Origin: Rhodococcus maanshanensis NBRC 100610
GTDB lineage: Bacteria; Actinomycetota; Actinomycetes; Mycobacteriales; Mycobacteriaceae
Length of the DNA stretch: 64,000 bases
Direction of reading: 5' to 3'
Assembly: GCF_001894865.1 (NCBI RefSeq)
Contig: NZ_BCXA01000026.1
Coordinates: 1-64,000, forward strand
This document shows, piece by piece, positions 5,877 to 28,091 of this stretch. Within the stretch, counting starts at the first letter, position 1; each line of letters begins with the position of its first letter. The position numbers and the translations under genes were made by a program. The notes under the pieces were generated by a model. That model worked only from the letters and a program-made list of their open reading frames with translations, was not told where the DNA came from and made no database searches.

Positions 5877-5910
5877 GGTGTCCTGTTTGACGATCGTCGA
5901 ACAGGACACC
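5877..5910. repeat. 34-bp near-perfect palindrome upstream of the NmrA-type gene
   Basis: The left arm ggtgtcctgtt and right arm aacaggacacc are perfect complements, and the 12 bp between them are themselves palindromic (gacgatcgtc) apart from one mismatch. Perfect symmetry through the centre favours a protein-binding site or recombination site over a terminator, which would have a loop. The 15-mer gtcctgtttgacgat recurs at about 3365-3379. Confidence 0.7.
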
Positions 5911-6029
5911 TTCGAGGGAAAGTGTTGGCGTGGCACGGATCACGATGACGTTCACTCCGACAAGGTTGACCTGAACCGTGGTTCATGTTTGACAGTTGTG
6001 TCATCGATCGCCGAGATGAGGAGAGTCCG

Positions 6030-6875
6030 ATGACACAGCCCAAGATCCTGGTGGCCGGCGCGACCGGAAAAGTCGGCGGCGCGGTGGTGACCCAACTGCA
6101 CGCGGCGGGCGTGCCCGTGCGGGCGTTGACGAGAGGGAAGGTCTCCTTCCCGGAGGGGGTGCAGGCGGTACGCGGGGACCTCAGCGATCCCACGTCGCTC
6201 GACGCGGCACTGGCGGGCATCGATTCGGTCTTCCTGGTGTGGCCGTTCCTGAGCGCCGAGGGCGCGCCGGCCGTGATCGACGCGATCGGGAAGCATGCCC
6301 GGCGGGTGGTGTACCTGTCCTCCGCCGGGGTCGGGGACGAGAAGCCGGGCGAGGCCATCACCATGTTCCACACGGAGCTGGAGCGATTGATCGAGGCGTC
6401 GGGTTTGGATTGGACGGCGCTGCGGCCCACCGGGTTCGCGAGCAACACGCTGGGTTGGGCCGAGGAGGTCCGCACCACCGGCGCAGTACGCGCGCCGCTG
6501 CCGAAGCTGGCCCGCCCGCTGATCCACGAGGCTGACATCGCGGCGGTCGCCGTCCAAGCTCTGACGACCGACGCCCTGCTCGGCGCCCGCCCCTTGATCA
6601 CCGGCCCCGAACTGGTCACCCAGGAACGGCAGGTGGCGCTGATCGGCGAGGCGATCGGGCGTCCGGTGCGGTTCGAGGAGATCACGCTGGATGAGGCCAT
6701 CGAGCAGATGAAGGCCGCGGGCTACCCTGTCGAACTGGTGGAGGCTGTGATGCCGGCCCAGGCAGAGATGCTCAACAATCCGGAGCCGGTCAACGACGAG
6801 GTGAAGCGCATCACGGGCACCCCGGCCCGGCCCTTCCGGGAGTGGGCGGTGGATCATGCGGCGGACTTCCGCTGA
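6030..6875 (+). CDS. NAD(P)-binding NmrA/YtfG-type reductase
   Basis: 281 residues of the atypical SDR (NmrA/quinone-reductase-2-like) family. The Rossmann dinucleotide motif is 'ILVAGATGKVGGAV' (GxxGxxG, residues 8-16), followed by 'AVRGDLSDPTSLDAALAGIDSVFLVWP' and the membrane-free substrate half with 'LDWTALRPTGFASNTL'. Relatives bind NAD(P)H and reduce quinones or act as redox sensors; the exact substrate is unknown. ATG at 6030 has GAGGAGAG 6 bp upstream. The large palindrome at 5877-5910 lies in its promoter region, and a strong hairpin (6939-6982) follows the gene. Confidence 0.85.
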   Translation: MTQPKILVAGATGKVGGAVVTQLHAAGVPVRALTRGKVSFPEGVQAVRGDLSDPTSLDAALAGIDSVFLVWPFLSAEGAPAVIDAIGKHARRVVYLSSAGVGDEKPGEAITMFHTELERLIEASGLDWTALRPTGFASNTLGWAEEVRTTGAVRAPLPKLARPLIHEADIAAVAVQALTTDALLGARPLITGPELVTQERQVALIGEAIGRPVRFEEITLDEAIEQMKAAGYPVELVEAVMPAQAEMLNNPEPVNDEVKRITGTPARPFREWAVDHAADFR

Positions 6876-6938
6876 GGGAGATGTCAATACTCATTGAAGG
6901 TCACTCACTCCGCCGTACGTGTCATGGCTGAATAGCGG

Positions 6939-6982
6939 ATGCCTTCGGGCTGGCCAACAAGAGTTGGTCAACCCGAAGGCAT
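6939..6982 (+). terminator. Long hairpin downstream of the NmrA-type gene
   Basis: atgccttcggg (6939-6949) pairs with cccgaaggcat (6972-6982). The inner ctggccaac and gttggtca also pair, allowing G-T wobbles, leaving a 4-nt loop. The hairpin is 19-20 bp long and has only a short T stretch (attt), so it can stop transcription from either side. It lies between a plus-strand gene and a minus-strand gene end, as expected for a bidirectional terminator. Confidence 0.75.
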
Positions 6983-7047
6983 TTCACCTGCTCTCGCCCC
7001 TCCGGGAGATTCCAATCCGCTCGGCTTCGGTCACTGACCCGCGGACG

Positions 7048-7365
7048 TCACCGTCGGGACAGATCGGGCCAGGGCGGACGGCGGAGGACGGCCAGCGTCG
7101 CCAACACCGCCGACGCCAGGCCGATGGACAAGGCCATCAACGCTATTCGGGTCTCGTCGACGGCGGGCTTCCAGGCGACTTCGCCGTCGTGGATGACGAA
7201 CACACCGACGGGCACCGCCACGGCGCCGCTGGTGCCCATGCGGCGGCCACCGATCCTGGCGACGGTGATGATCGTGGCGCCGTTGGCGGTCTCGTACGGC
7301 TCCCCGTAGACACGCAGGCCACCGGCACCGGGCGGCAGCCGATCCGCGACCTTCCGAATCTCCAT
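7048..7365 (-). CDS. GerW/YtfJ-like small membrane protein
   Basis: 105 residues. The N-terminal half ('GEPYETANGATIITVARIGGRRMGTSGAVAVPVGVFVIHDGEVAWKPA') has the order of strands and the 'GATII.V' and 'PVGVFVI' motifs of the GerW (spore protein YtfJ) family. A single membrane helix follows ('ALMALSIGLASAVLATLAVL'), then a basic tail. ATG at 7365 with GGGGGAGTG upstream is preferred over GTG at 7371. In Bacillus the family is germination-related; non-sporulating actinobacteria keep copies of unknown function. It lies 85 bp downstream of the PEBP gene on the same strand and could share its transcript. Confidence 0.6.
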   Translation of the reverse strand: MEIRKVADRLPPGAGGLRVYGEPYETANGATIITVARIGGRRMGTSGAVAVPVGVFVIHDGEVAWKPAVDETRIALMALSIGLASAVLATLAVLRRPPWPDLSRR

Positions 7366-7450
7366 GGTCACTCCCCCGTTCCGGCCGACACCGAGGCGCG
7401 CCGGGACCCTCGCCCGATCGGTTCGAGGGCCCCGCGCGCCGATCCGTCCG

Positions 7451-7984
7451 CTACTGCTCGTACGTCCCGGTCAGCGTCGCGCGCGCGATCGCGTGGCTGA
7501 AGAGGTTGAACCCGAGACGCCCCGGGCTGACCGACGTGTCCACGTCCAGCTTCTCCACCCCGACCGCGTGCACCGCGACGATGTACCGGTGCGGGCCGTG
7601 CCCGGCAGGCGGCGCGGCACCGAGGTACCCGTACAGGCCGCCGTCGTTGAGCAGCTGCACCGCACCCTCGGGCAGCCCGGATCCGTCCGCGGTACCCGCA
7701 CCGGACGCCAGCGAAGTCACCGTCACCGGGATGTTCGCGACCGCCCAGTGCCAAAAGCCGGAGGCGGTGGGGGCGTCCGGATCGAACACCGTCACCGCGA
7801 AGCTCTTCGTCTCCGCAGGGAACCCGGACCACGACAGCTGCGGCGAGATGTCCTGGCCGCCTGCCCCGAAGATCCCGCTCACCTGGGCGTTGGCAAGAAC
7901 CTGGCCGTCCTCGATGTCCGTCGAGGTCAGCGTGAACGACGGGAGCTCGGGAAGCGCGTCGTAGGGATTGTGCGAGGAAGCCAT
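7451..7984 (-). CDS. YbhB/YbcL family PEBP-like protein
   Basis: 177 residues, full-length phosphatidylethanolamine-binding-protein fold of the bacterial Raf-kinase-inhibitor-like group. The signature is '[42 protein letters not shown]' with the DPDAP and HW ligand-pocket residues, followed by '[12 protein letters not shown]'. No signal peptide, so it is probably cytoplasmic. A ligand-binding or proteolysis-modulating role is suggested for the family, but none is demonstrated. ATG at 7984 with AAAGG upstream. Confidence 0.93.
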
Positions 7985-8044
7985 GGTGGGACCTTTCAGC
8001 GGTGAGGGGGCGGAACCGGTGCGATCACTCGATGGATGCTGGCA

Positions 8045-9421
8045 CTAGCAATTATGGAGAAAGTGCTCGAGAACGCGGGTACCGAACTCGAGCGCGTCGA
8101 CGGGCACCCGCTCGTCGACGCCGTGGAAGAGGGCGGTGAAGTCCAGATCGGGCGGCAACTGCAGCGGAGCGAACCCGAAGCAGCGGATCCCCAGCTTCGC
8201 GAACGCCTTCGCGTCGGTGCCGCCGGACAGCATGTACGGCACCGTCCTGCCGTTCTCGTCGTGCGCCAGGATCGCGGCGTTCATCGCGTCCACCAGGTGC
8301 CCGTCGAAGGTGGTCTCGTAGGAGTCCAGCTTGGTGATCCATTCGCGGGTGACGTCCGGCCCGATCAGCTCGTCCACCTCCCGTTCGAAGGCGGCCTGCC
8401 TGCCGGGCAGCACGCGGCAGTCGACCACTGCCTCGGCGGTCTGCGGGATCACGTTCGCCTTGTACCCGGCGCTGAGCATGGTCGGGTTCGCGGTGTCACG
8501 CAGCGTCGCCCCGATGATCCGCGAGATCGTCCCGAGCTTCTCGAGCGTGCCGTCGATGTCCGGGGAGGCCGGGTCGAACTCGACCCCCGTCTCCGCACTC
8601 ACCGCGCCGAGGAACTCGGCGACCGAGTCGGGCACCACCAGCGGGAAGGTGTGCCTGCCCAGCCGGGCGACCGCCTCGGCCAGGATCGTGACGGCATTGT
8701 CCTCGTGCAGGAAGGATCCGTGTCCGGCGCGGGCCTTGGCCGTCAGCCGCATCCAGCCCAGCCCCTTCTCCGCCGTCTCCACCAGGTACAGCCGGGCCTC
8801 GCTGCCGTCGGGGCGCGGCACGCTCAGCGAGAAGCCGCCGACCTCGCCGACCGCCTCGGTGACGCCGTCGAACAGATCCGGGCGGTGCTCGACCAGCCAC
8901 TGCGACCCGTACTTGCCGCCCGCCTCCTCGTCGGCGAGGAACGCGAACACCAGATCGCGCGGCGGCACGGCGCCCTCCGCCTTGAACTGGCGAGCCAGCG
9001 CGAGGGTCATCCCGACCATGTCCTTCATGTCGATCGCCCCGCGGCCCCACACATAACCGTCCTCGACCGCCCCGGAGAAGGGGTGCACGCTCCAATCGGC
9101 GGGCTCGGCGGGCACGACGTCGAGGTGACCGTGGATCAGCAGCGCGCCACGCGTCGGGTCCGCGCCCCGCAGCCTTGCGAACACATTCCCGCGGCCCGGC
9201 GCGCCGGATTCCACGTACTCGGTCTCGTATCCGACCTCCTCGAGCCGGGCGGCCACCCACTGGGCGCACTCACGCTCCCCCTTGGTGGTGGCGAGCTCAC
9301 CGGTGTTGGAGGTGTCGAATCGGATCAGCGCGCTGACCAGATCGACGACTTCGGCCTCGGCTCGGCCACGATCGGAGTTGATCGCCGCGGCGGGGCCGTG
9401 AGTGTTCTCTGCGTCTGACAC
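8045..9421 (-). CDS. M20 family metallopeptidase (dipeptidase/deacylase type)
   Basis: 458 residues. Di-zinc site motifs are all present: 'LLIHGHLDVVP' (His, Asp), 'WGRGAIDMKDMVG' (bridging Asp), 'FLADEEAGGKYG' (general base Glu and Glu ligand), and the C-terminal 'MLSGGTDAKAFAKLGIRCFGF' with its His-containing end 'LFHGVDERVP'. The dimerisation lid lies in the middle (about residues 200-330). It resembles the actinobacterial M20/M25/M40 group that hydrolyses dipeptides or N-acyl amino acids; the substrate is unknown. The GTG start at 9421 has AGGAAAG upstream. No export signal is seen. Confidence 0.93.
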   Translation of the reverse strand: MSDAENTHGPAAAINSDRGRAEAEVVDLVSALIRFDTSNTGELATTKGERECAQWVAARLEEVGYETEYVESGAPGRGNVFARLRGADPTRGALLIHGHLDVVPAEPADWSVHPFSGAVEDGYVWGRGAIDMKDMVGMTLALARQFKAEGAVPPRDLVFAFLADEEAGGKYGSQWLVEHRPDLFDGVTEAVGEVGGFSLSVPRPDGSEARLYLVETAEKGLGWMRLTAKARAGHGSFLHEDNAVTILAEAVARLGRHTFPLVVPDSVAEFLGAVSAETGVEFDPASPDIDGTLEKLGTISRIIGATLRDTANPTMLSAGYKANVIPQTAEAVVDCRVLPGRQAAFEREVDELIGPDVTREWITKLDSYETTFDGHLVDAMNAAILAHDENGRTVPYMLSGGTDAKAFAKLGIRCFGFAPLQLPPDLDFTALFHGVDERVPVDALEFGTRVLEHFLHNC

Positions 9422-9546
9422 CCCACTTTCCTACCACCGAACACCCCCTCCTAGCAGCGCAGACGCGCTGATTTTGGCGTGGGGCCCTGCATCAGCTAAT
9501 CTTTCCCAGCACGCAGAAAACGGCGGGCAAACAACAAGGTGTGCAA

Positions 9547-9632
9547 GCGCGAGTGGCGGAATGGCAGACGCGCTAGCTTGAGGTGCTAGTGTCCTACTAA
9601 TGGACGTGGGGGTTCAAGTCCCCCCTCGCGCA
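9547..9632 (+). tRNA. tRNA-Leu (GAG)
   Basis: 86-nt class II tRNA. The acceptor stem GCGCGAG pairs with CTCGCGC (9625-9631) with discriminator A at 9632. The D arm contains GGAATGGCAGAC. The anticodon stem CTAGC/GCTAG encloses the loop TTGAGGT, so the anticodon is GAG. The long variable arm is tgtcctactaatggacg, and the T arm is GGGGG-TTCAAGT-CCCCC. CCA is not encoded. A strong terminator follows 18 bp downstream. Confidence 0.96.
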
Positions 9633-9650
9633 CTCTGAGTTGAGACAGAC

Positions 9651-9686
9651 GCGAAAGGCCCCGGATCACGATCCGGGGCCTTTCGC
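9651..9686. terminator. Bidirectional intrinsic terminator
   Basis: A perfect 17-bp stem (gcgaaaggccccggatc and its complement) around a 2-base centre, followed by gttt on the plus strand. It sits between tRNA-Leu and the 3' end of the minus-strand subtilase gene, so it can end both transcripts. Confidence 0.9.
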
Positions 9687-9715
9687 GTTTCTCCGAAACA
9701 TCCTGTCCGACATCA

Positions 9716-10927
9716 TCATCGGCCCATCGCCGCCTCCGTCCTCGCATGCTCGGCCGCCGTCAGCTCGCGCATCGCGAGATCCTTCGCGCATGCGAGCAGC
9801 GAGCCGACCGCGCTGACCCTCGGGAAGGACAGCCCGGTGTGCCCGACGTTGTCGTGCTCGTCGTCGCCGTCGTAGATGACGGTGGCGCCGCGCACCAGCC
9901 ACCGCTTCACATCGGCGACCGACGGCAGTTCACCCCTTGTCCGCAGGTAGAAGGACTGCAACAGCAAAACGACGCCCGTCGCGACCGGTGTCGCCTGACT
10001 CGTCCCGAACTGGAGCGACTCACCTGTGTCGTTGAGGATGCCCGCCGACGTCACCGGCGACCCCGGCGCGAAGATGTCCGTCGCGCACGGCCCGCCGATC
10101 TTGCGGTGCAGCCGCTGCGAGAACGGCGTCATCCGATCGGCCGCCGTCTCGAACGCCTTCGCCCCGTCCCGGTAGCGGAAGCTGCCCTCGTCGGCGTCGT
10201 AGACCGACCCGACACTGATCGTCTGTCTGAAGATCGCCGGGTAACTCATCCCCTGCATGCCGCCGTGCGCGTAGTAGTCGTTGCCCGCCGACACACAGCA
10301 GCAGACGCCCTCGTCGGTCAGTTCCTGGAGCAGGGCACCGATGCCGTCGCCCGGCATGTCGGTGTCGGTCGTCCGGTTGTCCGACGCGCCAAGCGCCATG
10401 CAGACGGCGGAGATGCCAAGAGACGACCGACGCTCGAGCACCCAGTCCAGTCCGTCTCGAATGTCCGTGAAGCTCCCGCCTCCGCTGTCGCCGAGGACCT
10501 TGACAGGAACGATCCGCGCGTTCGGGGCGACGCCCGTGTGGATCCGCGCGGCGCACGCGATTCCCGCCACGCTCGTGCCGTGGCCGTGCGCGTCCGTGAC
10601 GTCAGCGGGGTCGCCCCCGTTGTCCCGGGTGAAGTTGCGTCCCGGCACCACCCGGCCCGCGAAATCCACGTGTGTGGTGCGTAATCCGGTGTCGAGCACG
10701 GCGACGGTGACACCGGAACCACCGACGTTGAACTCACGGCGGGCGTCCGCCGCCCGGACGAGGAGATCGACCTCCGTCAGTTCCGGCAGGAACGGTCCGT
10801 CCTTCTGCACCGGGGCCTCGACGGGTATCACCGACTCGACGTGAAGCAGCGAATTCGGACGCGCCATGTCGTCGGTCACTGCTGTCGGGAACCGGGGCGG
10901 ATCCGTGGAACCATTCAACTCATTCAT
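9716..10927 (-). CDS. S8 family serine peptidase (subtilase)
   Basis: 403 residues with the complete Asp-His-Ser triad: 'VTVAVLDTGLR' (Asp), 'DAHGHGTSVAGI' (His) and 'GTSQATPVATGVV' (Ser), plus the oxyanion Asn region 'CCCVSAGNDYYAHGG'. There is no signal peptide. The N-terminal 60 residues before the first strand ('MARPNSLLHVESVIPVEAPVQK..FLPELTEVDLLVRA') resemble a short pro-segment. It is therefore either cytoplasmic or exported by a non-Sec route. ATG at 10927 has AAAGG 9 bp upstream. It is transcribed divergently from the SDR gene at 11114. Confidence 0.92.
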   Translation of the reverse strand: MNELNGSTDPPRFPTAVTDDMARPNSLLHVESVIPVEAPVQKDGPFLPELTEVDLLVRAADARREFNVGGSGVTVAVLDTGLRTTHVDFAGRVVPGRNFTRDNGGDPADVTDAHGHGTSVAGIACAARIHTGVAPNARIVPVKVLGDSGGGSFTDIRDGLDWVLERRSSLGISAVCMALGASDNRTTDTDMPGDGIGALLQELTDEGVCCCVSAGNDYYAHGGMQGMSYPAIFRQTISVGSVYDADEGSFRYRDGAKAFETAADRMTPFSQRLHRKIGGPCATDIFAPGSPVTSAGILNDTGESLQFGTSQATPVATGVVLLLQSFYLRTRGELPSVADVKRWLVRGATVIYDGDDEHDNVGHTGLSFPRVSAVGSLLACAKDLAMRELTAAEHARTEAAMGR

Positions 10928-17993: not shown

Positions 17994-19046
17994 ATGCCCG
18001 GTACCGAGCCGTCCACCGTGCCCCTGATCGTCGACGTCGACACCGGCATCGATGATTCACTCGCGCTGCTCTACCTGCTCGCCAGCCCCGAGGCCGAGAT
18101 CCTCACGATCGCCAGCACCGGCGGCAACGTGCCCGTCGCACAGGTCGCCGCGAACAACCTTGCGTGGCTGGAGCTGTGCGGCCGGCCGGACATCGAGGTC
18201 ACCCTCGGTTCGCCTGCGCCGCTGACCGATCCACTGCGCACCACCGAGGACACCCACGGCCCACAGGGCGTCGGCTACGCGGAGCTCCCTGCATCGACCA
18301 GGTCGGTGTCGGCGCGCAGTTCGGCGCAGGCCTGGGTCGACATCGCACGCGACCGCCCCGGCGAGGTCACCGGGCTTGTCACCGGACCACTGACCAACCT
18401 TGCCCTGGCGCTGCGGATCGAGCCAGCACTGCCGACCCTGCTGCACAGGATCATCGTGATGGGCGGCGCGTTTCACCATCCGGGTAACACGACACCGAAG
18501 GCGGAGTGGAACATCTCCGTCGACCCCGAGGCCGCCCGCGAGGTCTTCGATGCGTTCTCCGCCGCCCCCGCCGACCGCAGGCCGGTGATCTGCCCACTCG
18601 ACGTGACCGAGACCATCGAGATGCGACCGGAGCACCTGCGCCGGCTCGCGGCGGTCGCGGGCAGCACTCCCGCCGAGGTGATATCCGAGTCGGATCCGGT
18701 CGGAACCCGCTCGCACGCAGCGAATCCGATTGTCCGGCACCTGTCCGACGCCGTCCGCTTCTACCTCGAGTTCCACCGCGACCACGGTCAGGGATTCCTC
18801 GCGCACATGCACGACCCCTTCGCGGCGGCCGTCGCCCTCGGGACCGTCGACTATCGTGCCCGGTCCGCCACCGTGGACGTCGAGTTGACCGGAACTCTCA
18901 CGCGCGCCTGCACTGTCGCCGACTATTACGGAATGTGGGGACGTCCGTTCAACGCGGACATCGTGGTGGAGACCGATCCCGACGAGTTCTTCTCCTCCCT
19001 GGTGGACCGAATCGGACACTGTGCGCGTCGGACTCCGTTCGGTTGA
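17994..19046 (+). CDS. Nucleoside hydrolase (IUNH family)
   Basis: 350 residues. The calcium site motif 'LIVDVDTGIDDSLALLYLLA' (DxDxxxDD) is at residues 10-29. 'LVTGPLTNLALAL' and 'IIVMGGAFHHPGNTTPKAEWNISVDPEAA' (the ribose-binding Asn and Glu) and the C-terminal 'HMHDPFAAAVAL' (catalytic His, Asp ligand) complete the active site. It hydrolyses the N-glycosidic bond of ribonucleosides; pyrimidine versus purine preference cannot be read safely. It is coupled to the OsmC gene and lies 50 bp upstream of the first BPL_N gene on the same strand. Confidence 0.94.
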   Translation: MPGTEPSTVPLIVDVDTGIDDSLALLYLLASPEAEILTIASTGGNVPVAQVAANNLAWLELCGRPDIEVTLGSPAPLTDPLRTTEDTHGPQGVGYAELPASTRSVSARSSAQAWVDIARDRPGEVTGLVTGPLTNLALALRIEPALPTLLHRIIVMGGAFHHPGNTTPKAEWNISVDPEAAREVFDAFSAAPADRRPVICPLDVTETIEMRPEHLRRLAAVAGSTPAEVISESDPVGTRSHAANPIVRHLSDAVRFYLEFHRDHGQGFLAHMHDPFAAAVALGTVDYRARSATVDVELTGTLTRACTVADYYGMWGRPFNADIVVETDPDEFFSSLVDRIGHCARRTPFG

Positions 19047-19096: not shown

Positions 19097-20239
19097 GTGC
19101 GAAACCACCAGAGAATCTTGGTTGTCCTTTGGCTCGTGCTCGCTCTCGTCGGCATGCCCGTCGTCGCAACGGCACAGCCGAACTCGAATGCCACGGCGAG
19201 CGGACCACTGGCGCTCGTCTATCGCGGCCCCGCCTCATGCCAGGGGTGCCCCGAGTCGGTCGCGGTGATGCTGCGCAATTCACCGTCGCACTTCCGCACC
19301 GAGTACGTCGGGCCGAACGACACACCCATCACGGCTGAGACGCTGGCCCGCGCCAGCGTGTTCGCTCAGCCGGGCGGGCCCAGCCTGAGCAAGGCATGGA
19401 AGGCGATGAAGCCGTACTCCGGCATGATCCGCGACTGGATCCGCAACGGCGGCAACTACCTGGGCTTCTGCGTCGGCGGATACCTGGCCGGGGCGACTCC
19501 CGGCTACGACCTGCTGCCCGGAGACACCTCGCAGTACAGCGCCAAGCCGGGTGCAACGGTGTGGGACGCCCAACCGCACCGCTCCACAGTCGTGTGGCGC
19601 GGTCAGGAGAAGACCGCCTACTTCCAGGACCCGCCCGCGTTCGATCTGGAGCCCGGACACGACGCGACCATCCTCGGCACCTACAAGGGCGGCGAGATCG
19701 CGGCCCTTGCGGTCGATTTCGGGAAGGGACGGGTCGGCGTCACGGGACCCCACGTCGAAGCGGATGCGAGCTGGTTCATCGACGACGGACTCTCTGCTCA
19801 GGACGCGGTGCACATGGACTTGGCGCACGACCTGGTGGAGACGACAGTGCACCGCGGTGCCGGAACGGGAACGTCTAGTGCGACCACGCTGGTAGCGACA
19901 CCCGTGCCCGGACCCCTTCCGGTCCCCATGCCCGCGGAGACACCCGCTCCCGCGCCGACCGTGCCGGCAGAGCCCGCACCAACGGAAGCGCCTGCACCAT
20001 TGACCATTCCGGCGCCGGTCGAGGCCACACCGCCGACGACGGCCGCACCTCAGGAAACCGAAGCGACACCGCCGACCGGCACTCCCCCGGCGAGCACGCC
20101 CCCGGTCGCCACGCCCCCCGCACCGCAGCGTCCGCCGCTACCGTGGCCACTGAACCGTCTCGCGGAGGACCCGTTCTTCGGCCAGTTCTTCCCGGGTGCG
20201 GCCCCGACAGGTCAACCGTCGGCGCGTCCACACTCCTGA
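19097..20239 (+). CDS. BPL_N paralogue 1: secreted GATase1-like protein with Pro/Ala/Thr-rich tail
   Basis: 380 residues. Residues 1-26 are a Sec signal peptide ('ILVVLWLVLALVGMPVVATA', cleavage near ATAQ). Residues 37-253 are a BPL_N (biotin-protein-ligase N-terminal-like) domain of the class I glutamine amidotransferase fold. The nucleophile elbow is 'YLGFCVGGYLAGA' (Cys125), and the catalytic His219/Glu221 pair is in 'GPHVEAD'. A CxxC pair (Cys48, Cys51) lies near the N-terminus. Residues 255-380 are low-complexity Pro/Ala/Thr, typical of wall-spanning linkers. No biotin-ligase catalytic half is present. It has two paralogues at 24673 and 26569, so a role with the Pls-like enzyme is inferred. 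GTG start; a small hairpin overlaps its stop. Confidence 0.88.
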   Translation: MRNHQRILVVLWLVLALVGMPVVATAQPNSNATASGPLALVYRGPASCQGCPESVAVMLRNSPSHFRTEYVGPNDTPITAETLARASVFAQPGGPSLSKAWKAMKPYSGMIRDWIRNGGNYLGFCVGGYLAGATPGYDLLPGDTSQYSAKPGATVWDAQPHRSTVVWRGQEKTAYFQDPPAFDLEPGHDATILGTYKGGEIAALAVDFGKGRVGVTGPHVEADASWFIDDGLSAQDAVHMDLAHDLVETTVHRGAGTGTSSATTLVATPVPGPLPVPMPAETPAPAPTVPAEPAPTEAPAPLTIPAPVEATPPTTAAPQETEATPPTGTPPASTPPVATPPAPQRPPLPWPLNRLAEDPFFGQFFPGAAPTGQPSARPHS

Positions 20240-20249
20240 CTGTCAGGAG
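20233..20249 (+). terminator. Small hairpin at the end of BPL_N paralogue 1
   Basis: ctcctga - ctg - tcaggag: a 7-bp stem overlapping the stop codon, without a T-run. It is at best a weak terminator, so readthrough into the Pls-like operon remains possible. Confidence 0.35.
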
Positions 20250-20683
20250 CCACATCCCCCGATCTGCTCACCGCTGAGGTTCGCGCCCGGGCGAAGCGTC
20301 GCGCGGACGCTGAACGGGTGTCGACGTCCCGGTGAACGGGATGAATCGACGGGTGGAACGAAGGCCACCCGGCACCTGCGATCGGGTGGCGCGCGCTCTG
20401 GTAGCCTCCCTCCTCGTCCGGTCCGCCGGACCCCCGGATGCATGCCGTGCACCACCTCGTGGCCAGCTCGACGGCCTACTCAGATGGCCATGGCGACACC
20501 GGAATCGACGCGCCCGGTCCGAACATGACCATGCCGCGACGCGACCCGGACCCACCCCTCCGAGCCCCGCGCAGCGCCTCGCGTCCACGCCGCCGTCGAC
20601 CCCCCCGATCGAGATGCCCGGACGTGCTCACTCAGCGCGCCCGAGATTCCGCGTTTCCCGCGGCTCACCACCACGAGGAAGCC
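20240..20683. other. 444-bp leader of the Pls/BPL_N operon
   Basis: I see no convincing gene here. The frame of the synthetase stays open back to 20438, but the extra 82 residues are Arg/Pro-rich and unlike protein, and the good ribosome binding site (ACGAGGAAG) is just before ATG 20684. The stretch should contain the operon promoter. A 6-bp hairpin gtccgg-tccg-ccggac lies at 20416-20431. No known riboswitch is recognised. Confidence 0.5.
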
Positions 20684-23600
20684 ATGTCCAGTGCTCAAAC
20701 CCAGCCATTTCTGTCCGGTCGGGCATGGCTCGACACACCGATGCGACGTCTCGAGCACGTCTTCGAGGCCTCCGTCGCACGCGTGCCGCACGCCGTCGCG
20801 GTCGAGTGCGACGACCGACACCTGACCTACGCCGACCTCGAACAACGCGCGAACCAGATGGCCCACCATCTGATCGGCCGCGGCCTCGGCATCGGTGCCC
20901 GCGTCGCGATCCTGCTCGAGCGTTCCCCGGAGACCTACATCGCCCTGCTCGCGGTGCTCAAGGCCGGGGCGGCCTTCGTCCCGATCGATCCCGCCTCGCC
21001 CGCCGACCGCATCGCCTACATCACCGCGGACGCCGACGTCGACCTCGTGCTCACGAGCTCGGCGTTCTCGGACATCCTCGGCGGCCTGCAGGTGCCGTGG
21101 ACCGAGGTCGACAGTGAGTCCGCCTTCATCGCCGGGCAGCCGACCACCCGCCCGAGCTTCACGGTGACACACCGCGATCCGGCGGCGTACATCATCTACA
21201 CATCGGGCTCGACCGGACGGCCCAAGGGCGTCGAGATCGCTCAGTCGAGCATCTGCAACTTTCTCGACATCGTCCCCACCGTCTACGACGTGCAGCCGAC
21301 CGATCGGGTGTACCAGGGCATGACCATCTCGTTCGACTTCTCCATCGAGGAGATCTGGCCGACGTGGGCCGTTGGTGCCACTCTCGTCCCCGGACCCACC
21401 GGCGCGGGTCGGCTCGGCGGCGAACTCGCGGACTTCCTCGAGTCGCGTGCCGTCACCGTCATGTACTGCGTGCCGACGCTGCTCGCCACGATCCCCCGCG
21501 AGCTCCCACTGTTGCGCAGCATCCTCGTCGGCGGCGAGGCCTGCCCGCGCGAACTGGTCGAGCGATGGGGCCGACCCGGCAGACGCATCCTCAACACCTA
21601 CGGACCGACCGAGGCAACCGTGACCGCGACGTGGTGCGAGCTCGTGCCGGGTCGCCCGGTGACGATCGGTGTCCCGCTTCCCACCTACTCGGTGGTGATC
21701 CTCGACGAGAACCGCGAGCCGGTCCCCCACGGTGGCGTCGGTGAGATCTGCATCGGCGGACCAGGCGTCGCCCGCGGATACGTCGGCCGCCCCGACCTGA
21801 CCGCCGACCGGTTCCTCGACCTGCCGATCACGGGCATCCGCGGCCGCATCTACCGCACGGGCGATCTCGGCCGGATCACCGAGAACGGCGAAGTCGAGTA
21901 CCTCGGCCGCGCCGACAGCGAGGTCAAGATCCGAGGGCACCGCGTCGATCTCGGTGAGATCGAGAGCGTTCTGCTCGTCGACGACGCCGTCGCCAGCGCG
22001 GTCGTCTCGAAGGTCACCGTCGCCGACGTCGAGCAGCTCGCGTCGTGGGTGGTGCTCATGCCGGGCGCAGACGCAGGCGGCGCCGCGATGGCCGCACTGA
22101 TCGCCCGCGTGCACGACGAGCTGCAGAGACGGCTCCCGGACTACATGGTGCCGACCTTCCTCGACGTCGTCGACGAACTGCCGATGATGCCGAGCGGCAA
22201 GGTCGACCGACCCCGCCTGCCCGCTCCCACCGGCCGACGACTGTCCGGGCCGACCGGCCCCGTCGTCGCGGCGGCCAACGCGGTCGAGCACGACCTGCGC
22301 AGATTGTGGGCCGACCTGCTCGGTCTGCCCGACGACGAGGTGTCCGTCGAGGCCGACTTCTTCACCGAGCTCGGAGGCCACTCACTCGCCGCGGCCCAGC
22401 TGGTCACGCGGTTGCGCGAGAGCGGGATGCACCCGACCGCAGGCATCCGGGACGTGTACGCCCAGCCGACCATTCGTGCGATTGCCGCGACACTGATCGG
22501 AATCGGCCGAGTCGGCGGAACCGGCTGCGCGCTCCCCCCTGCCCCGCCGACACACCACACCGTCGGCGAACCGATCGGCAGTGCCGCCGTGCGACGCGCC
22601 GGGGCGCTGCAGGCCCTGTTCGTCCTCCTCGTCCTGCTCGTGGTGACCATCCCGGTCTCGATCGTGTACGTCCGCCACGGCGGTCAGCCGTCGTTCGACG
22701 CCCTCGTCGACCTGCTGATCGCCACCGTTCCGTCGTACCTGGTGGTGCGGTGGGTGGTCCCGGTCGTCGCGATCCGGCCGCTGTCCGCGGGCATCGGCCC
22801 CGGCCGCTACCGACTCTGGGGCGCAACGTATCTACGTCTGTGGATGGTCGACCACCTCATGCTGCTGGCGCCGATGCCGGTGCTCAGCGGATCGCCGCTG
22901 ATGGCTCCGTTCCTGCGGGCCCTCGGCGCCAGGGTGGGTGCAGGCGCCCACATCGGCACCTCGACCGTCTCGTTCCCCTCGCTGGTCACCATCGGCGCCG
23001 GGGCCTCGCTCGGCACGAACACCGACGTGCGGCCGTGGCGGGTCGTCGGCCGTCAGGTCGTAGTGGCGCCGGTCGTCGTCGGTGCGCACGCATACGTCGC
23101 CGCGAACTGCGCACTCGAACCGGGCGCCGTCGTCGGCGACGGCGCGATGCTCGGCGACCAGTCCGTGCTCGCGGAGGGCGCGACGATCCCCGCGCACAGC
23201 CGCTGGTCCGGCTCGCCGCCGCGCCAGGTGCGCGCCCTCGACCCGCGCATCGAAGCGATGGCCGCGGACGAGCCTGCACCCGAGTGGACCCCGAAGTTGC
23301 TGATGTTCACCGCGTTCGGTGTGCTCACCCTCGAGGCGCTGACGATCGCGACCATCGTGCCGAGCCTGGTTCTGGTGTGGGCGGTGCTGCTCGAGTACGG
23401 GATGATCGCCTCGTTGCTGGCGACGCTGGCTTCCGGCGCCGTCTACGTTGCCAGCGTGTGCGCCGTCGTCGCGCTCGGCAAGAAGCTGATCCTGCCGTCG
23501 CTGCCGATCGGCACCTTCCCCGAGGCGTCCGCGCTCGGCGTCAGGAAATGGGCCACCGACAAGCTGTTCGAGATGAGCCTGCTCTACACGAACACCCTCT

Positions 23601-24676
23601 ACGCGACCCTCTACACGGTGCCGTGGCTGCGCCTGCTCGGCGCCGAGGTCGGCCGCGGCGCCGAGGTCTCGACCGTCTCCCACATCGACCCCGACCTGCT
23701 GACCATCGGCGAGGAGAGCTTCGTCGCCGACATGGCGAGCCTCGGCGGCAGCACGTTCTGCAACGGCCGGATGACGTTCGCCCCCACCGAGATCGGTACC
23801 AGGGCGTTCATCGGCAACGCCGCGGTACTGCCGAGTGGAATGCGCACCGGCGACGGTTCACTGGTCGGCGTGCTCACCGTCCCGCCTGCCGAGGGCGTTC
23901 CGCCCGACACCTCGTGGCTCGGCAATCCGGCGTTCTACCTGCCCGCCCGCCAGGACAGCGGCCAGTTCGACGAGACGGAGACCTTCGCACCGAGCCGAGC
24001 GGTGGTCGCCCACCGCTGGTGGATCGAGTTCTTCCGGATCGTCTTGCCGCCGACGGTGATCGGGGTGAGTCTGTACTTCTATCTGCTCGGGCTCTCGCTG
24101 ATCGCCCGTGCCAGCACCCTCACCTGGACGATCCTGTCTGCTCCGCTGCTCGCACTGGCAACGGCGCTCGGGGTGGTCCTGTTCTCCGCGGCGGTGAAGA
24201 AGAACCTGGTCGGCACCTACCGGCCTCGGGTCGAGCCGCTCTGGGCCAAGTTCGTACGACGGTCCGAGTTCGCCACCGGCATGTACGAGTCCGCGGCCGT
24301 CCCGGTACTGCTGGGCCAGCTCACCGGAACCCCGTTCCTGCCGATGATCCTGCGCTGGTACGGCGCGGGCATGGGCAGGCGGGTCTGGATGGGTACCACC
24401 TATCTCACCGAGTTCGACCTGGTGCAGGTCGGCGACGACGCGGTGATCGGGGCCGGGGTGTCGCTGCAGACCCACCTGTTCGAGGACCGGGTGATGAAGA
24501 TGTCGACGGTGACCGTCGGCGCAGGCGCGACAGTCGGCACCCGTGCGGTGGTGCTCTACGACGCGGTCGTCGGCGAGCACGCCGAACTCGGTGCCCTGTC
24601 CCTGCTGATGAAGGGCGACGAGCTGCCGGCCAACACCCGGTGGGAAGGCGTCCCGGCGCAGGCGGTGCACGCGTGA
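20684..24676 (+). CDS. Pls/PosA-family non-ribosomal peptide synthetase (poly-epsilon-lysine-synthetase-like)
   Basis: 1330 residues, nearly the size of Streptomyces epsilon-poly-L-lysine synthetase. Residues 25-510 are an adenylation domain: 'IIYTSGSTGRPKG' (171-183), 'YGPTE' (306-310), 'YRTGD' (390-394), 'RGHRVD' (418-423) and 'PSGKVDR' (503-509, catalytic Lys506). Residues 530-605 are a carrier domain with 'GGHSL' (Ser567 for phosphopantetheine). From 640 on there are about six membrane helices alternating with three left-handed beta-helix (hexapeptide) domains, e.g. 'GARVGAGAHIGTS', 'GAEVGRGAEVSTVS' and 'GAGMGRRVWMGTT', the arrangement used by Pls for iterative amide-bond formation. There is no condensation or thioesterase domain. 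Aligned to GrsA, the substrate pocket reads D-F-E-Y-L-G-T-V-T-K; the Glu at 239 suggests a basic amino acid (inference). It is coupled by a GTGA overlap to the next gene. Confidence 0.93.
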   Translation: MSSAQTQPFLSGRAWLDTPMRRLEHVFEASVARVPHAVAVECDDRHLTYADLEQRANQMAHHLIGRGLGIGARVAILLERSPETYIALLAVLKAGAAFVPIDPASPADRIAYITADADVDLVLTSSAFSDILGGLQVPWTEVDSESAFIAGQPTTRPSFTVTHRDPAAYIIYTSGSTGRPKGVEIAQSSICNFLDIVPTVYDVQPTDRVYQGMTISFDFSIEEIWPTWAVGATLVPGPTGAGRLGGELADFLESRAVTVMYCVPTLLATIPRELPLLRSILVGGEACPRELVERWGRPGRRILNTYGPTEATVTATWCELVPGRPVTIGVPLPTYSVVILDENREPVPHGGVGEICIGGPGVARGYVGRPDLTADRFLDLPITGIRGRIYRTGDLGRITENGEVEYLGRADSEVKIRGHRVDLGEIESVLLVDDAVASAVVSKVTVADVEQLASWVVLMPGADAGGAAMAALIARVHDELQRRLPDYMVPTFLDVVDELPMMPSGKVDRPRLPAPTGRRLSGPTGPVVAAANAVEHDLRRLWADLLGLPDDEVSVEADFFTELGGHSLAAAQLVTRLRESGMHPTAGIRDVYAQPTIRAIAATLIGIGRVGGTGCALPPAPPTHHTVGEPIGSAAVRRAGALQALFVLLVLLVVTIPVSIVYVRHGGQPSFDALVDLLIATVPSYLVVRWVVPVVAIRPLSAGIGPGRYRLWGATYLRLWMVDHLMLLAPMPVLSGSPLMAPFLRALGARVGAGAHIGTSTVSFPSLVTIGAGASLGTNTDVRPWRVVGRQVVVAPVVVGAHAYVAANCALEPGAVVGDGAMLGDQSVLAEGATIPAHSRWSGSPPRQVRALDPRIEAMAADEPAPEWTPKLLMFTAFGVLTLEALTIATIVPSLVLVWAVLLEYGMIASLLATLASGAVYVASVCAVVALGKKLILPSLPIGTFPEASALGVRKWATDKLFEMSLLYTNTLYATLYTVPWLRLLGAEVGRGAEVSTVSHIDPDLLTIGEESFVADMASLGGSTFCNGRMTFAPTEIGTRAFIGNAAVLPSGMRTGDGSLVGVLTVPPAEGVPPDTSWLGNPAFYLPARQDSGQFDETETFAPSRAVVAHRWWIEFFRIVLPPTVIGVSLYFYLLGLSLIARASTLTWTILSAPLLALATALGVVLFSAAVKKNLVGTYRPRVEPLWAKFVRRSEFATGMYESAAVPVLLGQLTGTPFLPMILRWYGAGMGRRVWMGTTYLTEFDLVQVGDDAVIGAGVSLQTHLFEDRVMKMSTVTVGAGATVGTRAVVLYDAVVGEHAELGALSLLMKGDELPANTRWEGVPAQAVHA

Positions 24677-25356
24677 GGCACCCGTACCACCGCCCCCTCG
24701 CCCTCGTGTACCGCGGCGGGGGCGCAACGCTGCCCGGTTGTGCGGAGTCCGTGGCCGCACTGCTCTCGCTCAGCCGGTGGGACTTCGACGTCCGCTACGT
24801 GGGCCCCGGCGAGGACCTGCCGCTCGCACCCGACGTCCTGCGGTCCGCGGCCGTCTACGCCCAGCCCGGCGGTGACGAACTGCTCCCCGCCTGGCGGCGG
24901 ATGCGTCGACACCGGGACACGGTCCGCGAGTATGTCGCAGGCGGCGGTCGCTACCTGGGGTTCTGTCTCGGCGGGTACCTCGCGGGCGCCACGCCTGGCT
25001 TCGATCTCCTCCCAGGAGACGCCGACCGTTACATCTCCACCGATCGGTCCGAGGTCGCCGGCCCCGAGGCCACCGTCGTCGACGTGCGGTGGCGGGGCCG
25101 TCCACAGCCGATGTACTTCCAGGACGGTCCGACCTTCGAACTGCCGCAGTACTTTCCGCCCGGCATGTACGTGCTGGCCGCGTACGCCAACGGCCAGGTC
25201 GCCGCGCTCACCGCCCGCTTCGGTGCGGGGCGTGTCGGGGTCGTCGGCCCGCACCCGGAAGCCGACGCCGATTGGTTCGCCGATTCCGGACTGCCCACTC
25301 CCACCGGCGTCGGTACCGTCGCCGGCCTCGACCTGATCGACGCGGTGATGAGCTGA
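24673..25356 (+). CDS. BPL_N paralogue 2: cytoplasmic GATase1-like protein
   Basis: 227 residues, starting with GTG that overlaps the synthetase stop (GTGA). There is no signal peptide: the domain begins at residue 9 ('LALVYRGGGATLPGCAESVA'). The nucleophile Cys98 is in 'YLGFCLGGYLAGA', and His194/Glu196 are in 'GPHPEAD'. Shared signatures with the two paralogues are 'YAQPGG', 'FQDGPTF' and 'GRVGVVGPH'. Of the CxxC pair found in the paralogues, only the second Cys remains. It is the only member predicted to stay inside the cell. An amidotransferase, amidase or hydrolase role on the polymer or its precursor is possible but unproven. Confidence 0.88.
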   Translation: MRHPYHRPLALVYRGGGATLPGCAESVAALLSLSRWDFDVRYVGPGEDLPLAPDVLRSAAVYAQPGGDELLPAWRRMRRHRDTVREYVAGGGRYLGFCLGGYLAGATPGFDLLPGDADRYISTDRSEVAGPEATVVDVRWRGRPQPMYFQDGPTFELPQYFPPGMYVLAAYANGQVAALTARFGAGRVGVVGPHPEADADWFADSGLPTPTGVGTVAGLDLIDAVMS

Positions 25357-25357
25357 C

Positions 25358-26572
25358 ATGACGACACTGACCGACACTCCCGTTGCCGCCGTCCCCGCAC
25401 GGCGGCGGATCCGCCTGCGCGGCATCGACCTGGCCCGCAGCCTGGCCGTGCTCGGCATGATCGCCGTGCACTCGCTGGACGACTACGACGCCGACGGCAA
25501 CCCGACCATGTCGTACAGCCTCTCCGCCGGACACGCATCGGCGATGTTCGCGGTGCTGGCCGGAGTCGCGATCGCCTTCCTGTCCGGTCGTCGCCGGCTG
25601 CCGCGCGGGCCGCAGTCTCTCGGCACCGCCGCGTCGCTGGTCGCCCGCGCCGGGATGCTCGGGCTGATCGGGTTGTCGTTGGGATACACCGAGATCGACT
25701 ACGGGGTGGTGATCCTTCCCTACTACGCCGTCATGTTCCTGCTCGCCGTACCCCTGGTGTATCTGGGCACCCGCGCGCTGGCGGTGCTGGCAGTGGCGTC
25801 CGCCGCGTTGATGCCTGCGCTCAGTCAGCTCGTGCGCCCTCATCTCCCTGAGCCGTTCACCCGGCAGTTGTCCTGGGAGACAGTGCTGGTCAAGCCGTTC
25901 GAGTCGCTGGCCAATCTGATCTTCACCGGTGAGTTCCCTGTGGTCGTGTGGATGACCTACGTGCTGGTTGGCATCGTGGTGGGCCGGCTCGACCTCTCGT
26001 CTCTGCGGATCAACGCCTGGCTCACCGGCTTCGGCGCGCTATTGGTCTCGCTATCCGCCACCCTGTCCTGGATGGTGCTGCACCCGTTCGACGGCCTGAA
26101 CCGACTCGAGGCGATCACCGATCCCGACACCCTGGCGGAAGTCCTCGCGTTCGGCTCCGACGGCACCGTGCCCACCGACACCTGGTGGTGGCTGGGGGTC
26201 AACGGTCCGCACACCGGCACCTCGCTGGACCTGATGAACACCATTGGCAGCTCGCTCCTGGTTCTCGGCCTGTGCCTGCTGCTGTTCTGGATCGGCCGGC
26301 CGACCCTGGCTCGTGCCGTCAACATCCTCACCGCGCCACTGGTTGCCGTCGGCACGATGTCGCTGACCGTCTACGTCGGCCACATCATGTTCATCAACTC
26401 CGACTTCGACATGTACGACGCCACGGAGGGCTATCTGCGGCAGGTCCTGGTGATCTGCGTCGTGGCACTCGCCTGGCGCGCGACCGCCGGTCGCGGCCCC
26501 CTCGAGGGTCTCGTCACCGCCGTGACCACCCGGGTCCGCCGGGCCGTCGAGTCCAGGGTTGGCCGCACGTGA
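25358..26572 (+). CDS. Multi-pass membrane acyltransferase (HGSNAT/DUF1624-DUF418 type)
   Basis: 404 residues with about ten hydrophobic helices. It opens with 'RIRLRGIDLARSLAVLGMIAVHS', the signature of the heparan-alpha-glucosaminide N-acetyltransferase/DUF418 superfamily, including the conserved His at the end of helix 1. A late 'MSLTVYVGHIMFINSD' matches the C-terminal 'LTxYxxQ/H' helix of the family. Such proteins pass an acetyl group across the membrane onto an amine or hydroxyl. It starts 1 bp after paralogue 2 and overlaps paralogue 3 by GTGA, so it belongs firmly to this operon. N-acetylation of polymer amino groups is the obvious hypothesis. Confidence 0.85.
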   Translation: MTTLTDTPVAAVPARRRIRLRGIDLARSLAVLGMIAVHSLDDYDADGNPTMSYSLSAGHASAMFAVLAGVAIAFLSGRRRLPRGPQSLGTAASLVARAGMLGLIGLSLGYTEIDYGVVILPYYAVMFLLAVPLVYLGTRALAVLAVASAALMPALSQLVRPHLPEPFTRQLSWETVLVKPFESLANLIFTGEFPVVVWMTYVLVGIVVGRLDLSSLRINAWLTGFGALLVSLSATLSWMVLHPFDGLNRLEAITDPDTLAEVLAFGSDGTVPTDTWWWLGVNGPHTGTSLDLMNTIGSSLLVLGLCLLLFWIGRPTLARAVNILTAPLVAVGTMSLTVYVGHIMFINSDFDMYDATEGYLRQVLVICVVALAWRATAGRGPLEGLVTAVTTRVRRAVESRVGRT

Positions 26573-27354
26573 ACAGAACCGCGGGCCAGGTGACGCGACG
26601 GCGGTTCCTGATCGGAGCGGCCGGTGCAGGCGCAGTCGGCGCTGCCGCCGCCGTCGGCCTTCCGCGTCTGCTCGAGGACGACCGCCCCGTCGCACTCGTG
26701 TACCGCGGTCCCGCGACGTGTGCCGGATGCGCGGAGTCGGTGGCAAGCTTGCTCGAGTCTGCCCCGACGCCGTTGCGTCCGGTGTACTGCGGTCCCGACG
26801 AAGAGGTCGATGTCACACCCGAATCCCTCGCAGGCGCAACGCTCTACGCACAACCGGGTGGCGGGACCCTCGACCCCGCGTGGCGCCGCGTGCGGGGCTA
26901 CGCTCCGCACCTCCGTGAGTGGGTGGCGTCGGGCGGCACCTACCTCGGCTTCTGTCTCGGCGCCTACCTCGCAGGCGCCGACCCGGGCTACAACCTGTTC
27001 CCGGGGCGGGTACGGCAGTACATCGGGACCGACGAGGCCACCGTCGACGACACCGAGGACACCGTCGTGGAGGTGACGTGGCGCGACGAGCGACGCCACA
27101 TGTTCTTCCAGGACGGCGCTGTGTTCAGGGTGCCCGGTGACGACTGGGGCGCGGTCGGTGCCACGGTGCTCGCCCGCTACCCGAACGACACCGTCGCTGC
27201 CGTCGTCAGCCCCTACGGCAGCGGCCGCGTCGGCCTGGTCGGCCCCCACCCGGAGGCCGACGAATCCTGGTACCGCGGGCCGGACCTGGTGAACCCGGAC
27301 GGCATCCGATACGACCTCGGGCACGATCTCATCACGACCGCACTGCAGCGCTGA
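26569..27354 (+). CDS. BPL_N paralogue 3: Tat-exported GATase1-like protein
   Basis: 261 residues. The N-terminus 'VTRRRFLIGAAGAGAVGAAAAVGLP' is a twin-arginine signal (RRRFLIG followed by an Ala/Gly-rich hydrophobic stretch), possibly kept as an anchor because no clear cleavage site follows. The BPL_N domain covers residues 40-258: CxxC at Cys51-Cys54, nucleophile Cys129 in 'YLGFCLGAYLAGA', and His227/Glu229 in 'GPHPEAD'. Export by Tat implies folding, and perhaps cofactor or ligand loading, in the cytoplasm, in contrast to the Sec-exported paralogue 1. It is the last gene of the operon and converges with the NlpC/P60 gene 8 bp away. Confidence 0.88.
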   Translation: MNRTAGQVTRRRFLIGAAGAGAVGAAAAVGLPRLLEDDRPVALVYRGPATCAGCAESVASLLESAPTPLRPVYCGPDEEVDVTPESLAGATLYAQPGGGTLDPAWRRVRGYAPHLREWVASGGTYLGFCLGAYLAGADPGYNLFPGRVRQYIGTDEATVDDTEDTVVEVTWRDERRHMFFQDGAVFRVPGDDWGAVGATVLARYPNDTVAAVVSPYGSGRVGLVGPHPEADESWYRGPDLVNPDGIRYDLGHDLITTALQR

Positions 27355-27362
27355 CGCGTAGC

Positions 27363-27953
27363 TCAGAACCGTTGCACGTTGTGGATGGGCGGCAGGTCGG
27401 CGAGCCCGGTCAGACCGATCGGGACATCCTCGTCGTATGCGTTGAACACCTGCCCGAATCCCGCGTAGATGCCGACGTGGTCGGCGGCATCACGGAAGGT
27501 GATCACGTCGCCGGGAGCCATCGCCTCGACCGGAATCGGTTCGCCTGCCAGTGCCTGATCCTCGCTCACCCGCGGCAGATCCACTCCTGCCTGCCCGAAT
27601 GCCCACTGCACGAGGCCCGAACAGTCCCACGCGTCGGGCCCGGTTCCGCCCCAGCTGTAGGGCTTGCCTGCCTGTGTGTAGGCGGCGGCGAGTGCTCTCA
27701 GGCCGGCAGAACTCCCCACACCCTCGGGGAGGGTTATCTCCGAGGGTGCGGCGGATTCCTCGACTTCGTCCGATTCGCTCAACCGGTCGAGCTGATCGGC
27801 GGTCGAGTGCGCGAGCAACGGCGGCACCACCATCGCGCTGGCGACCGCAACGAGCAGCCCGGTCGTGGCGAGCGCGGTTCCGAATCGGGCACGACCACCG
27901 CGTGGCGCGGCCGCGTCGGCATCGCCCCGCGATGTCACAACGGACGCGTCCAC
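27363..27953 (-). CDS. NlpC/P60 cell-wall peptidase, membrane-anchored
   Basis: 196 residues from the GTG at 27953, which has AGAAGGAT 6 bp upstream; a longer frame to 28028 lacks a ribosome binding site. One membrane helix ('ALATTGLLVAVASAMVVPPLL') is followed by an acidic linker and a C-terminal NlpC/P60 domain: 'YSWGGTGPDAWDCSGLVQWAFGQAG' (catalytic Cys) and 'FRDAADHVGIYAG' (catalytic His). Members cleave the D-Glu-diaminopimelate bond in peptidoglycan stem peptides. It converges on the Pls/BPL_N operon; a functional link is not shown. Confidence 0.9.
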   Translation of the reverse strand: MDASVVTSRGDADAAAPRGGRARFGTALATTGLLVAVASAMVVPPLLAHSTADQLDRLSESDEVEESAAPSEITLPEGVGSSAGLRALAAAYTQAGKPYSWGGTGPDAWDCSGLVQWAFGQAGVDLPRVSEDQALAGEPIPVEAMAPGDVITFRDAADHVGIYAGFGQVFNAYDEDVPIGLTGLADLPPIHNVQRF

Positions 27954-28091
27954 TGCCAATCCTTCTGTGCCACACAAACTCCGTTCAGCAAACCGCAGAG
28001 GCACCGACATGGTACAGAGAGGTGACAACCCGGGTCGCGACAGGCACGACCCGGGTTGTCAGCCGGGATTCGACGATGCGGGTCGCAGCGC

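Follow-up and report, generated by a model that had tools for sequence, protein, structure and literature searches.

Why does a synthetase of the Pls/PosA family share its locus with a membrane acyltransferase and three genes for BPL_N, an uncharacterised domain, and what could the BPL_N proteins be doing there? The question is raised by a stretch of 64,000 nucleotides from Rhodococcus maanshanensis NBRC 100610 (contig NZ_BCXA01000026.1, positions 1 to 64,000; hereafter the window), in which these five genes follow one another on the plus strand. Synthetases of the Pls type make cationic polymers, such as epsilon-poly-lysine, that are used as food preservatives, and the chain release, chain length and self-protection of these systems are only partly understood. 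Sequence comparison leaves us nearly certain that the five genes represent a real cassette, and that this cassette belongs to one clade of synthetases and not to Pls loci in general. Its genes are:

19097..20239, plus strand: BPL_N-1 (PF09825, 41.4 bits), with a hydrophobic segment at 4-28 and a Pro-rich C-terminal tail
20684..24676, plus strand: divergent synthetase of the Pls/PosA family (TIGR02353, 559 bits; Pfam domains), with an alternative start at 20438
24673..25356, plus strand: BPL_N-2 (PF09825, 52.6 bits), no signal seen, with Cys98, His194 and Glu196
25358..26572, plus strand: transmembrane acyltransferase of the HGSNAT_cat/TmAT type (PF07786, 34.5 bits against a cut-off of 22)
26569..27354, plus strand: BPL_N-3 (PF09825, 47.9 bits), with the twin-arginine motif TRRRFL

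All three BPL_N proteins exceeded the PF09825 gathering cut-off (24.2 bits), the best-matching stretch covering about the first third of the model, and they were the only PF09825 matches in the 5.67-Mb source genome. The initial annotation had read the synthetase, two BPL_N genes and the HGSNAT-type acyltransferase as coupled through GTGA overlaps or a 1-bp gap, which was confirmed nearly to the base: 4-bp GTGA overlaps join the synthetase to BPL_N-2 (24673-24676) and the acyltransferase to BPL_N-3 (26569-26572), and a single base pair (25357) separates BPL_N-2 from the acyltransferase. The third BPL_N gene claimed upstream is indeed present on the same strand. Because ATG 20684, preceded by GAGGAAGCC, is a better synthetase start than ATG 20438, this gene lies 444 bp upstream of the synthetase, outside the tight operon.

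Linkage of BPL_N to one clade of synthetases

Five of the six genomes of the genus, the source included, carry three or four BPL_N genes (some matches being in two pieces), all of them at the single locus that also contains the divergent synthetase (558-571 bits), and a canonical synthetase (746-765 bits) is present in all six. The linkage therefore held in close relatives: four of the five relatives of the source keep their three or four BPL_N genes in the synthetase locus, and the fifth (G001) has neither BPL_N nor the divergent synthetase. Among 201 genomes of the family, 19 carry BPL_N and 15 have at least two TIGR02353 matches, 14 genomes being common to both sets; the profile searches scored few candidates per genome (five in the family, two in the phylum), so that additional copies may have escaped detection. 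One exception is G194, where BPL_N is absent and the second match is another synthetase of the canonical type (L021, DAE pocket). BPL_N also occurs alongside a single synthetase match in five genomes (G062, G078, G093, G119 and G130), and no window-type synthetase was found in the stretches from three of these (L018-L020), L020 holding a 61-bit match. Thirteen shared genomes besides the source yielded 14 loci, or 15 with the window, and 14 of the 15 comprise the synthetase, an adjacent BPL_N gene, the acyltransferase and at least one further BPL_N gene. In G192 (L017), a 79-percent-complete draft, the synthetase and acyltransferase frames are broken. Antrihabitans cavernicola (G080) carries two complete cassettes (L010 and L011, on the same contigs as L051 and L059).

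A motif-based search of 84,980 species, each represented by one genome, gave 76 loci from the best 80 of 254 relatives. By a scripted count, 70 of these BPL_N loci contain a Pls-family gene, which is of the window type in 69 and canonical and divergent in one (L093). Five loci without such a gene (L070, L076, L078, L080 and L099) have fewer than 600 bases upstream of BPL_N, at contig ends, and L031 is a true lone BPL_N, the same locus as L013. The synthetase lies upstream of BPL_N on the same strand in 68 of the 70 loci, in 43 of them no more than 150 nt from where the BPL_N domain begins and one gene away in most of the others. Since these 76 loci are those most closely related to the query, they do not measure the general frequency of BPL_N linkage, and they overlap with other samples (L024-L028, L051, L052 and L059 were already in the family set; L034, L045 and L056 are positives of the class sample).

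In a sample of 148 genomes of the class, BPL_N was found in four, the source and three members of one genus, each time no more than about 0.3 kb from a match to a window-type synthetase. BPL_N stood beside all three synthetases with a DFE...TVT pocket (see below) and beside none of the 31 others; this comparison covers 34 of the 36 non-source TIGR02353 rows, two fragments from G202 being omitted, and used a profile of 64 BPL_N sequences over about 7 kb on each side, less at contig ends. Across 396 genomes of the phylum, a profile of the window-type terminal domain scored 1238 and 1099 bits and then, after a sharp drop, 449. The two top scorers, the source and G834 (whose synthetase is split over two frames of the draft), have an acyltransferase and BPL_N beside the synthetase. 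Altogether, samples chosen without regard to BPL_N contained window-type synthetases at five loci, the source included, and BPL_N was a partner at all five.

Among 200 genomes of the Streptomycetaceae, the family of G217, 19 carry BPL_N, at 20 places. Coupling to a window-type synthetase is seen at one of them (L136); at 13 a canonical synthetase lies no more than about 25 kb away, and 6 have no synthetase in the retrieved stretch, several of them at contig ends. Thus, BPL_N is not confined to synthetase loci. Twelve of the 13 places belong to one genus, so that shared chromosome order may explain the proximity to canonical synthetases. BPL_N genes of a lipoprotein type occur near canonical synthetases at L138 (on the same S. 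humicola contig as L093), L147 and 11 further Streptomycetaceae places, adjoining them in two; this may reflect synteny or a looser link.

The survey of gene neighbourhoods thus supports the cassette idea for one synthetase clade (70/76 loci; 3/3 versus 0/31) and not for Pls loci generally, canonical synthetases being without BPL_N over about 7 kb on each side and 19 of the 20 Streptomycetaceae places being uncoupled. Chance adjacency is ruled out by the same linkage counts. Because the pairing is found repeatedly in many actinobacteria, it has the look of a functional unit that has been overlooked; no published report of a BPL_N/Pls pairing was found in the limited collection of literature searched.

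Synthetase pocket, phylogeny and predicted substrate

The window synthetase has the architecture that had been claimed for it: an adenylation domain (AMP-binding, PF00501), a carrier domain (PP-binding, PF00550, with serine 567 within GGHSL), three pairs of hydrophobic segments in a Kyte-Doolittle scan (residues 634-704, 871-940 and 1119-1173) and hexapeptide domains with left-handed beta-helix repeats. Its terminal domain exceeds the curated cut-off of TIGR02353 (559 versus 423 bits), which places it in the Pls/PosA family. The source genome has a second synthetase (L022, G000:C12:99719-101776; 608 bits to PDB 7wew), which is canonical, has a DAE pocket and shows no BPL_N in the surrounding 16 kb. 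With this epsilon-poly-lysine-type copy elsewhere in the genome, the window synthetase is the divergent copy.

The pocket of the window synthetase reads D-F-E-Y-L-G-T-V-T, in a numbering based on what we take to be the positions of the GrsA phenylalanine domain. The fourth letter was read by hand as Y (in YCVPT), the scripted D being a false motif match in the window; the script gave D in five other rows as well. The first three letters were obtained for 73 of 86 rows, reading DFE in 70, each of the window type, and DAE in 3, each canonical, and the canonical rows of the class sample with a pocket read have DAE, or DAR in two. At position 2, synthetases of poly-diaminopropionate (PDAP) and poly-diaminobutyrate (PDAB) carry Phe, PosA carries Met and Pls carries Ala, smaller pocket residues admitting longer side chains (PMC10522769). 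The window synthetase conforms to the PDAP/PDAB rule, with Phe at position 2 and the conserved Asp and Glu, so that a short diamino acid is likely, although the rule does not tell diaminopropionate from diaminobutyrate. Judging from the pocket, either of these is a likelier substrate than lysine, which is disfavoured by pocket and clade, the source genome already having a DAE-type copy. Assignment of the window synthetase as a Pls proper was rejected, since it has Phe and not Ala at position 2 and its group is separate from the canonical one in the tree.

In this tree of 119 terminal domains (114 different; frames shorter than 840 residues omitted; a quick search with a long-branch warning), 71 rows linked to BPL_N form one group with a support of 100 in the Shimodaira-Hasegawa-like approximate likelihood ratio test (SH-aLRT). 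The single row labelled as linked that falls outside is the canonical synthetase found beside a window-type one in L068. In this locus of Streptomyces pinistramenti (5871-9920, and from 10606), a window-type synthetase, BPL_N, the canonical synthetase and an M1 peptidase are consecutive. Synthetase and BPL_N distances agree (Mantel r 0.72, 52 loci), a result to be expected of genes that move together or follow the species. Elsewhere in the tree, TIGR02353 domains of the class sample in frames of ~860-1190 residues with no readable adenylation pocket (L107, L108, L123 and L125-L128) form a deep separate group with L116, and L061, on a contig of Rhodococcus sp. IEGM 1379, is labelled Cyanobacteriota and has a Rhodococcus row as its nearest.

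Among known systems, the window synthetase resembles the PDAP synthetase PDAPs (EXU85975.1, from Streptomyces albulus PD-1, now S. noursei) in being a single-module adenylation-carrier-membrane polymerase with Phe at pocket position 2 (PMC10522769). With Pls it shares the architecture, and the second gene of the Pls/PldII pair likewise overlaps the synthetase by 4 bp (PMC4361855), but the Pls pocket is DAE...TVV instead of DFE...TVT, the Pls partner is a peptidase instead of BPL_N, the tree group is different and a Pls type is carried by the host genome in addition. PosA, the delta-poly-L-ornithine synthetase, belongs to the same family and has the Asp/Glu pocket positions, but differs by Met at position 2 (PMC10522769) and by a single-gene operon in Acinetobacter. 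NCBI taxonomy places S. albulus, including the PDAP producer PD-1, in S. noursei, and S. noursei A-2-1 has one family gene of the DAE type and one of the DFE type, the latter coupled to BPL_N and in the tree group of the window synthetase. This DFE gene would be the natural candidate for a PDAP synthetase. The S. noursei locus yielded no acyltransferase, and the excerpts of PDAPs literature at hand mention no BPL_N partner.

BPL_N proteins, the acyltransferase and their neighbours

Motifs support the three compartments suggested in the initial annotation, namely one BPL_N exported by the general secretory (Sec) route, one cytoplasmic and one exported by twin-arginine translocation (Tat). Signal types were assigned by eye and by pattern, not by a dedicated predictor. 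BPL_N-1 has a Sec-type signal (MRNHQRILVVLWLVLALVGMPVVATA) and a domain like that of class I glutamine amidotransferases, with the Cys in YLGFCVGGYLAG and the His and Glu in GPHVEAD. In the family cassettes, the synthetase-adjacent BPL_N has no signal, and each of the 14 full cassettes also encodes one or more BPL_N copies in which a twin-arginine motif precedes the domain; the nearest rows of BPL_N-3 in the BPL_N tree are second copies of relatives. Twin-arginine matches in the coupled copies L044, L048, L059 and L069 were loose patterns in upstream read-through and were treated as false.

The BPL_N fold is that of class I glutamine amidotransferases, with invariant Cys, His and Glu, and the same invariant residues occur in copies inside and, by the Tat motif, outside the cell. 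Fold relatives share at most 20 percent identity among the matches listed, with homoserine acyltransferases at ranks 37 and 41, and sequence searches of the PDB with BPL_N gave no match under E 0.01. Cyanophycinase and gamma-glutamyl hydrolase are fold relatives that cleave isopeptide bonds; their names are not among the matches listed, which excludes nothing. BPL_N has its fold and Cys/His/Glu motifs in common with class I glutamine amidotransferases and gamma-glutamyl peptidase 1, but differs from the amidotransferases in having exported copies and no recognised synthase partner.

The AlphaFold model of the acyltransferase (ACYLTRANSFERASE) has a mean predicted local distance difference test score (pLDDT) of 93.8, and Foldseek ranks 1-14 are human HGSNAT entries with template modelling scores (TM-scores) to the query of 0.49-0.56. 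Rows 1 and 6 are titled only 'membrane proteins' (8JKV and 8JL4); 8JL4 is presumably HGSNAT. PMC12423673 identifies 8JKV as HGSNAT and DxxR in the first helix as a motif of the TmAT superfamily. Residues D24, R27 and H38 of the window protein are invariant in all 36 aligned sequences and correspond to DxxR and to R-X10-H, a motif named in PMC9833829 in connection with its His25. The PF07786 match above the cut-off, both motifs and the HGSNAT-like fold fit the TmAT superfamily (HGSNAT_cat), although the second His of the window protein (GHAS) is Arg or Lys in most relatives listed, and a PDB sequence search with the acyltransferase profile found nothing at E values up to 1. The reaction of HGSNAT is the acetylation, across a membrane, of a polymer amino group (PMC11357348), which makes the amines of an exported polymer a fair guess as acceptor; by this analogy, it is plausible that the window enzyme acts on amines.

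Neighbour statistics were drawn from 65 of the 69 window-type loci, each with at least 13 kb covered. The acyltransferase occurs with a second BPL_N gene in 27 loci, alone in 6 and with an M1 peptidase in 11, the M1 peptidase occurs alone in 12, and none of the three is present in 9. A second BPL_N gene was always accompanied by the acyltransferase (27/27) and never by an M1 peptidase (0/27, versus 23/38 of the remaining loci; Fisher 1e-7, relatedness ignored). The M1 protein of L092 (PF01433) is lipoprotein-like by eye. Only a handful of recurring neighbour families were identified, and no synthase partner of a glutamine amidotransferase was recognised among them. A DDAH-like gene, present in 18 of the 69 loci, is closest in the PDB to Alr4995 and Sll1336, which we take to be arginine dihydrolases yielding ornithine.

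Possible roles of BPL_N and the flanks of the cassette

We tentatively propose, with somewhat less than even confidence, that the locus is an operon for a second kind of Pls/PosA polymer, in which the BPL_N proteins are polymer hydrolases and the acyltransferase acts extracytoplasmically. The synthetase would adenylate a short diamino acid, most likely L-2,3-diaminopropionate, load it on the carrier domain and join the units into a polymer at the membrane by isopeptide linkages. BPL_N-2, which is presumably cytoplasmic and has its Cys/His/Glu set on a class I amidotransferase fold, would cleave polymer or stalled chains inside the cell and, being translationally coupled to the synthetase, would fill the slot of the degradase gene pldII beside the poly-lysine synthetase. 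Tat- or Sec-exported copies would carry out the same chemistry outside, and the acyltransferase would move an acyl group from cytoplasmic acyl-CoA to free amines on the polymer once it is exported, thereby adjusting the polymer's charge. Cleavage is favoured over amidation or ligation by the fold with its Cys/His/Glu set, the exported copies, the pldII-like place in the operon and the mutual exclusion with M1 peptidases, and this nucleophile fold is known for amide cleavage, which supports hydrolysis. The argument is nevertheless a convergence of four weak points, of which none is decisive.

Several observations weigh against the proposal. The closest BPL_N folds are the glutaminase subunits Pdx2 and HisH, not hydrolases, and no report on the activity of BPL_N proteins of this kind was found in the literature searched. 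The M1 exclusion statistic is uncorrected for relatedness, and 15 of the 65 loci have neither a second BPL_N nor an M1 peptidase, so that an outside hydrolase is not universal. As to the linkage, the class-sample positives are one genus, the fifteenth family locus (G153, L013) is a lone BPL_N in a genome whose second synthetase was not located, and the Streptomycetaceae places are mostly uncoupled. The published pdaps open reading frame has 4,338 bp (PMC4668381), whereas the S. noursei A-2-1 frame has at most 1,422 codons; identity or orthology of the two is therefore unproven. Finally, S. lividans formed some polymer with pdaps alone (PMC4668381), so that a partner is not strictly needed for synthesis, a result that leaves degradation unaddressed.

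The same points bear on other roles. It is unlikely that BPL_N-2 is a chain-release or editing enzyme, which would hydrolyse or transfer the polymer from the carrier thioester, set chain length and supply the thioesterase step that Pls-type synthetases lack. Such a role would account well for the constant coupled copy, given the partner at 5/5 window-type synthetases and a BPL_N gene that often nearly abuts the synthetase gene; a Cys nucleophile suits thioester chemistry, and the release step is stated as unknown in PMC4668381. However, the exported copies keep the same invariant residues with no carrier thioester to act on, the S. lividans result speaks against a required release partner and canonical synthetases manage without BPL_N nearby. 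Quite unlikely, in our estimate, is a transpeptidase-like ligase activity of BPL_N that would link the polymer to the cell envelope or another acceptor while the acyltransferase trims the polymer's charge. The strict company of second BPL_N and acyltransferase, a Cys/His/Glu acyl-enzyme that could hand an acyl group to an amine and the fold shared with homoserine acyltransferases would suit ligation, but the few neighbour families identified included no recognisable acceptor-linked gene and the constancy of a cytoplasmic ligase is left unexplained.

A joint reading is possible though doubtful, in which BPL_N would be a new Cys/His/Glu class acting on isopeptide polymers both inside and outside the membrane: the copy coupled to the synthetase, which has no thioesterase, would end or release chains in the cytoplasm, and the Tat-exported copies would transfer or anchor the acylated polymer to the envelope. 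If true, modified cationic polymers would be made across Actinomycetota by an assembly line that spans the membrane. Glutamine-dependent amidation of the polymer or its monomer by BPL_N is very unlikely, because exported copies with the same invariant residues would lack ATP and a synthase partner outside, and none of the neighbour families identified was recognised as such a partner. That the genes are mere neighbours by descent, with no shared pathway, has almost no probability: linkage can persist among relatives, and the lipoprotein-type genes of Streptomycetaceae could be such a case, but the tree names eight families with the same coupling, among which gene order and orientation vary and extra genes occur, one genome holds two whole cassettes (L010 and L011) and G001 lacks BPL_N and the divergent synthetase jointly.

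A constant partner for a whole synthetase clade offers a direct handle on release, chain length and self-protection and provides BPL_N with a testable substrate. It also points to many genomes whose hosts are likely to make polymers of the diaminopropionate type, possibly in acylated form.

The window gap between BPL_N-1 and the synthetase (20240-20683) is only 444 bp. A regulator-like gene fills the same gap in L024, L025 and L027, where it belongs to one family, the L024 member having a LuxR-type domain. The cassette is flanked by two further genes:

17994-19046: nucleoside hydrolase gene (PF01156), of a family kept in 5 loci
27363-28028, opposite strand: NlpC/P60 gene

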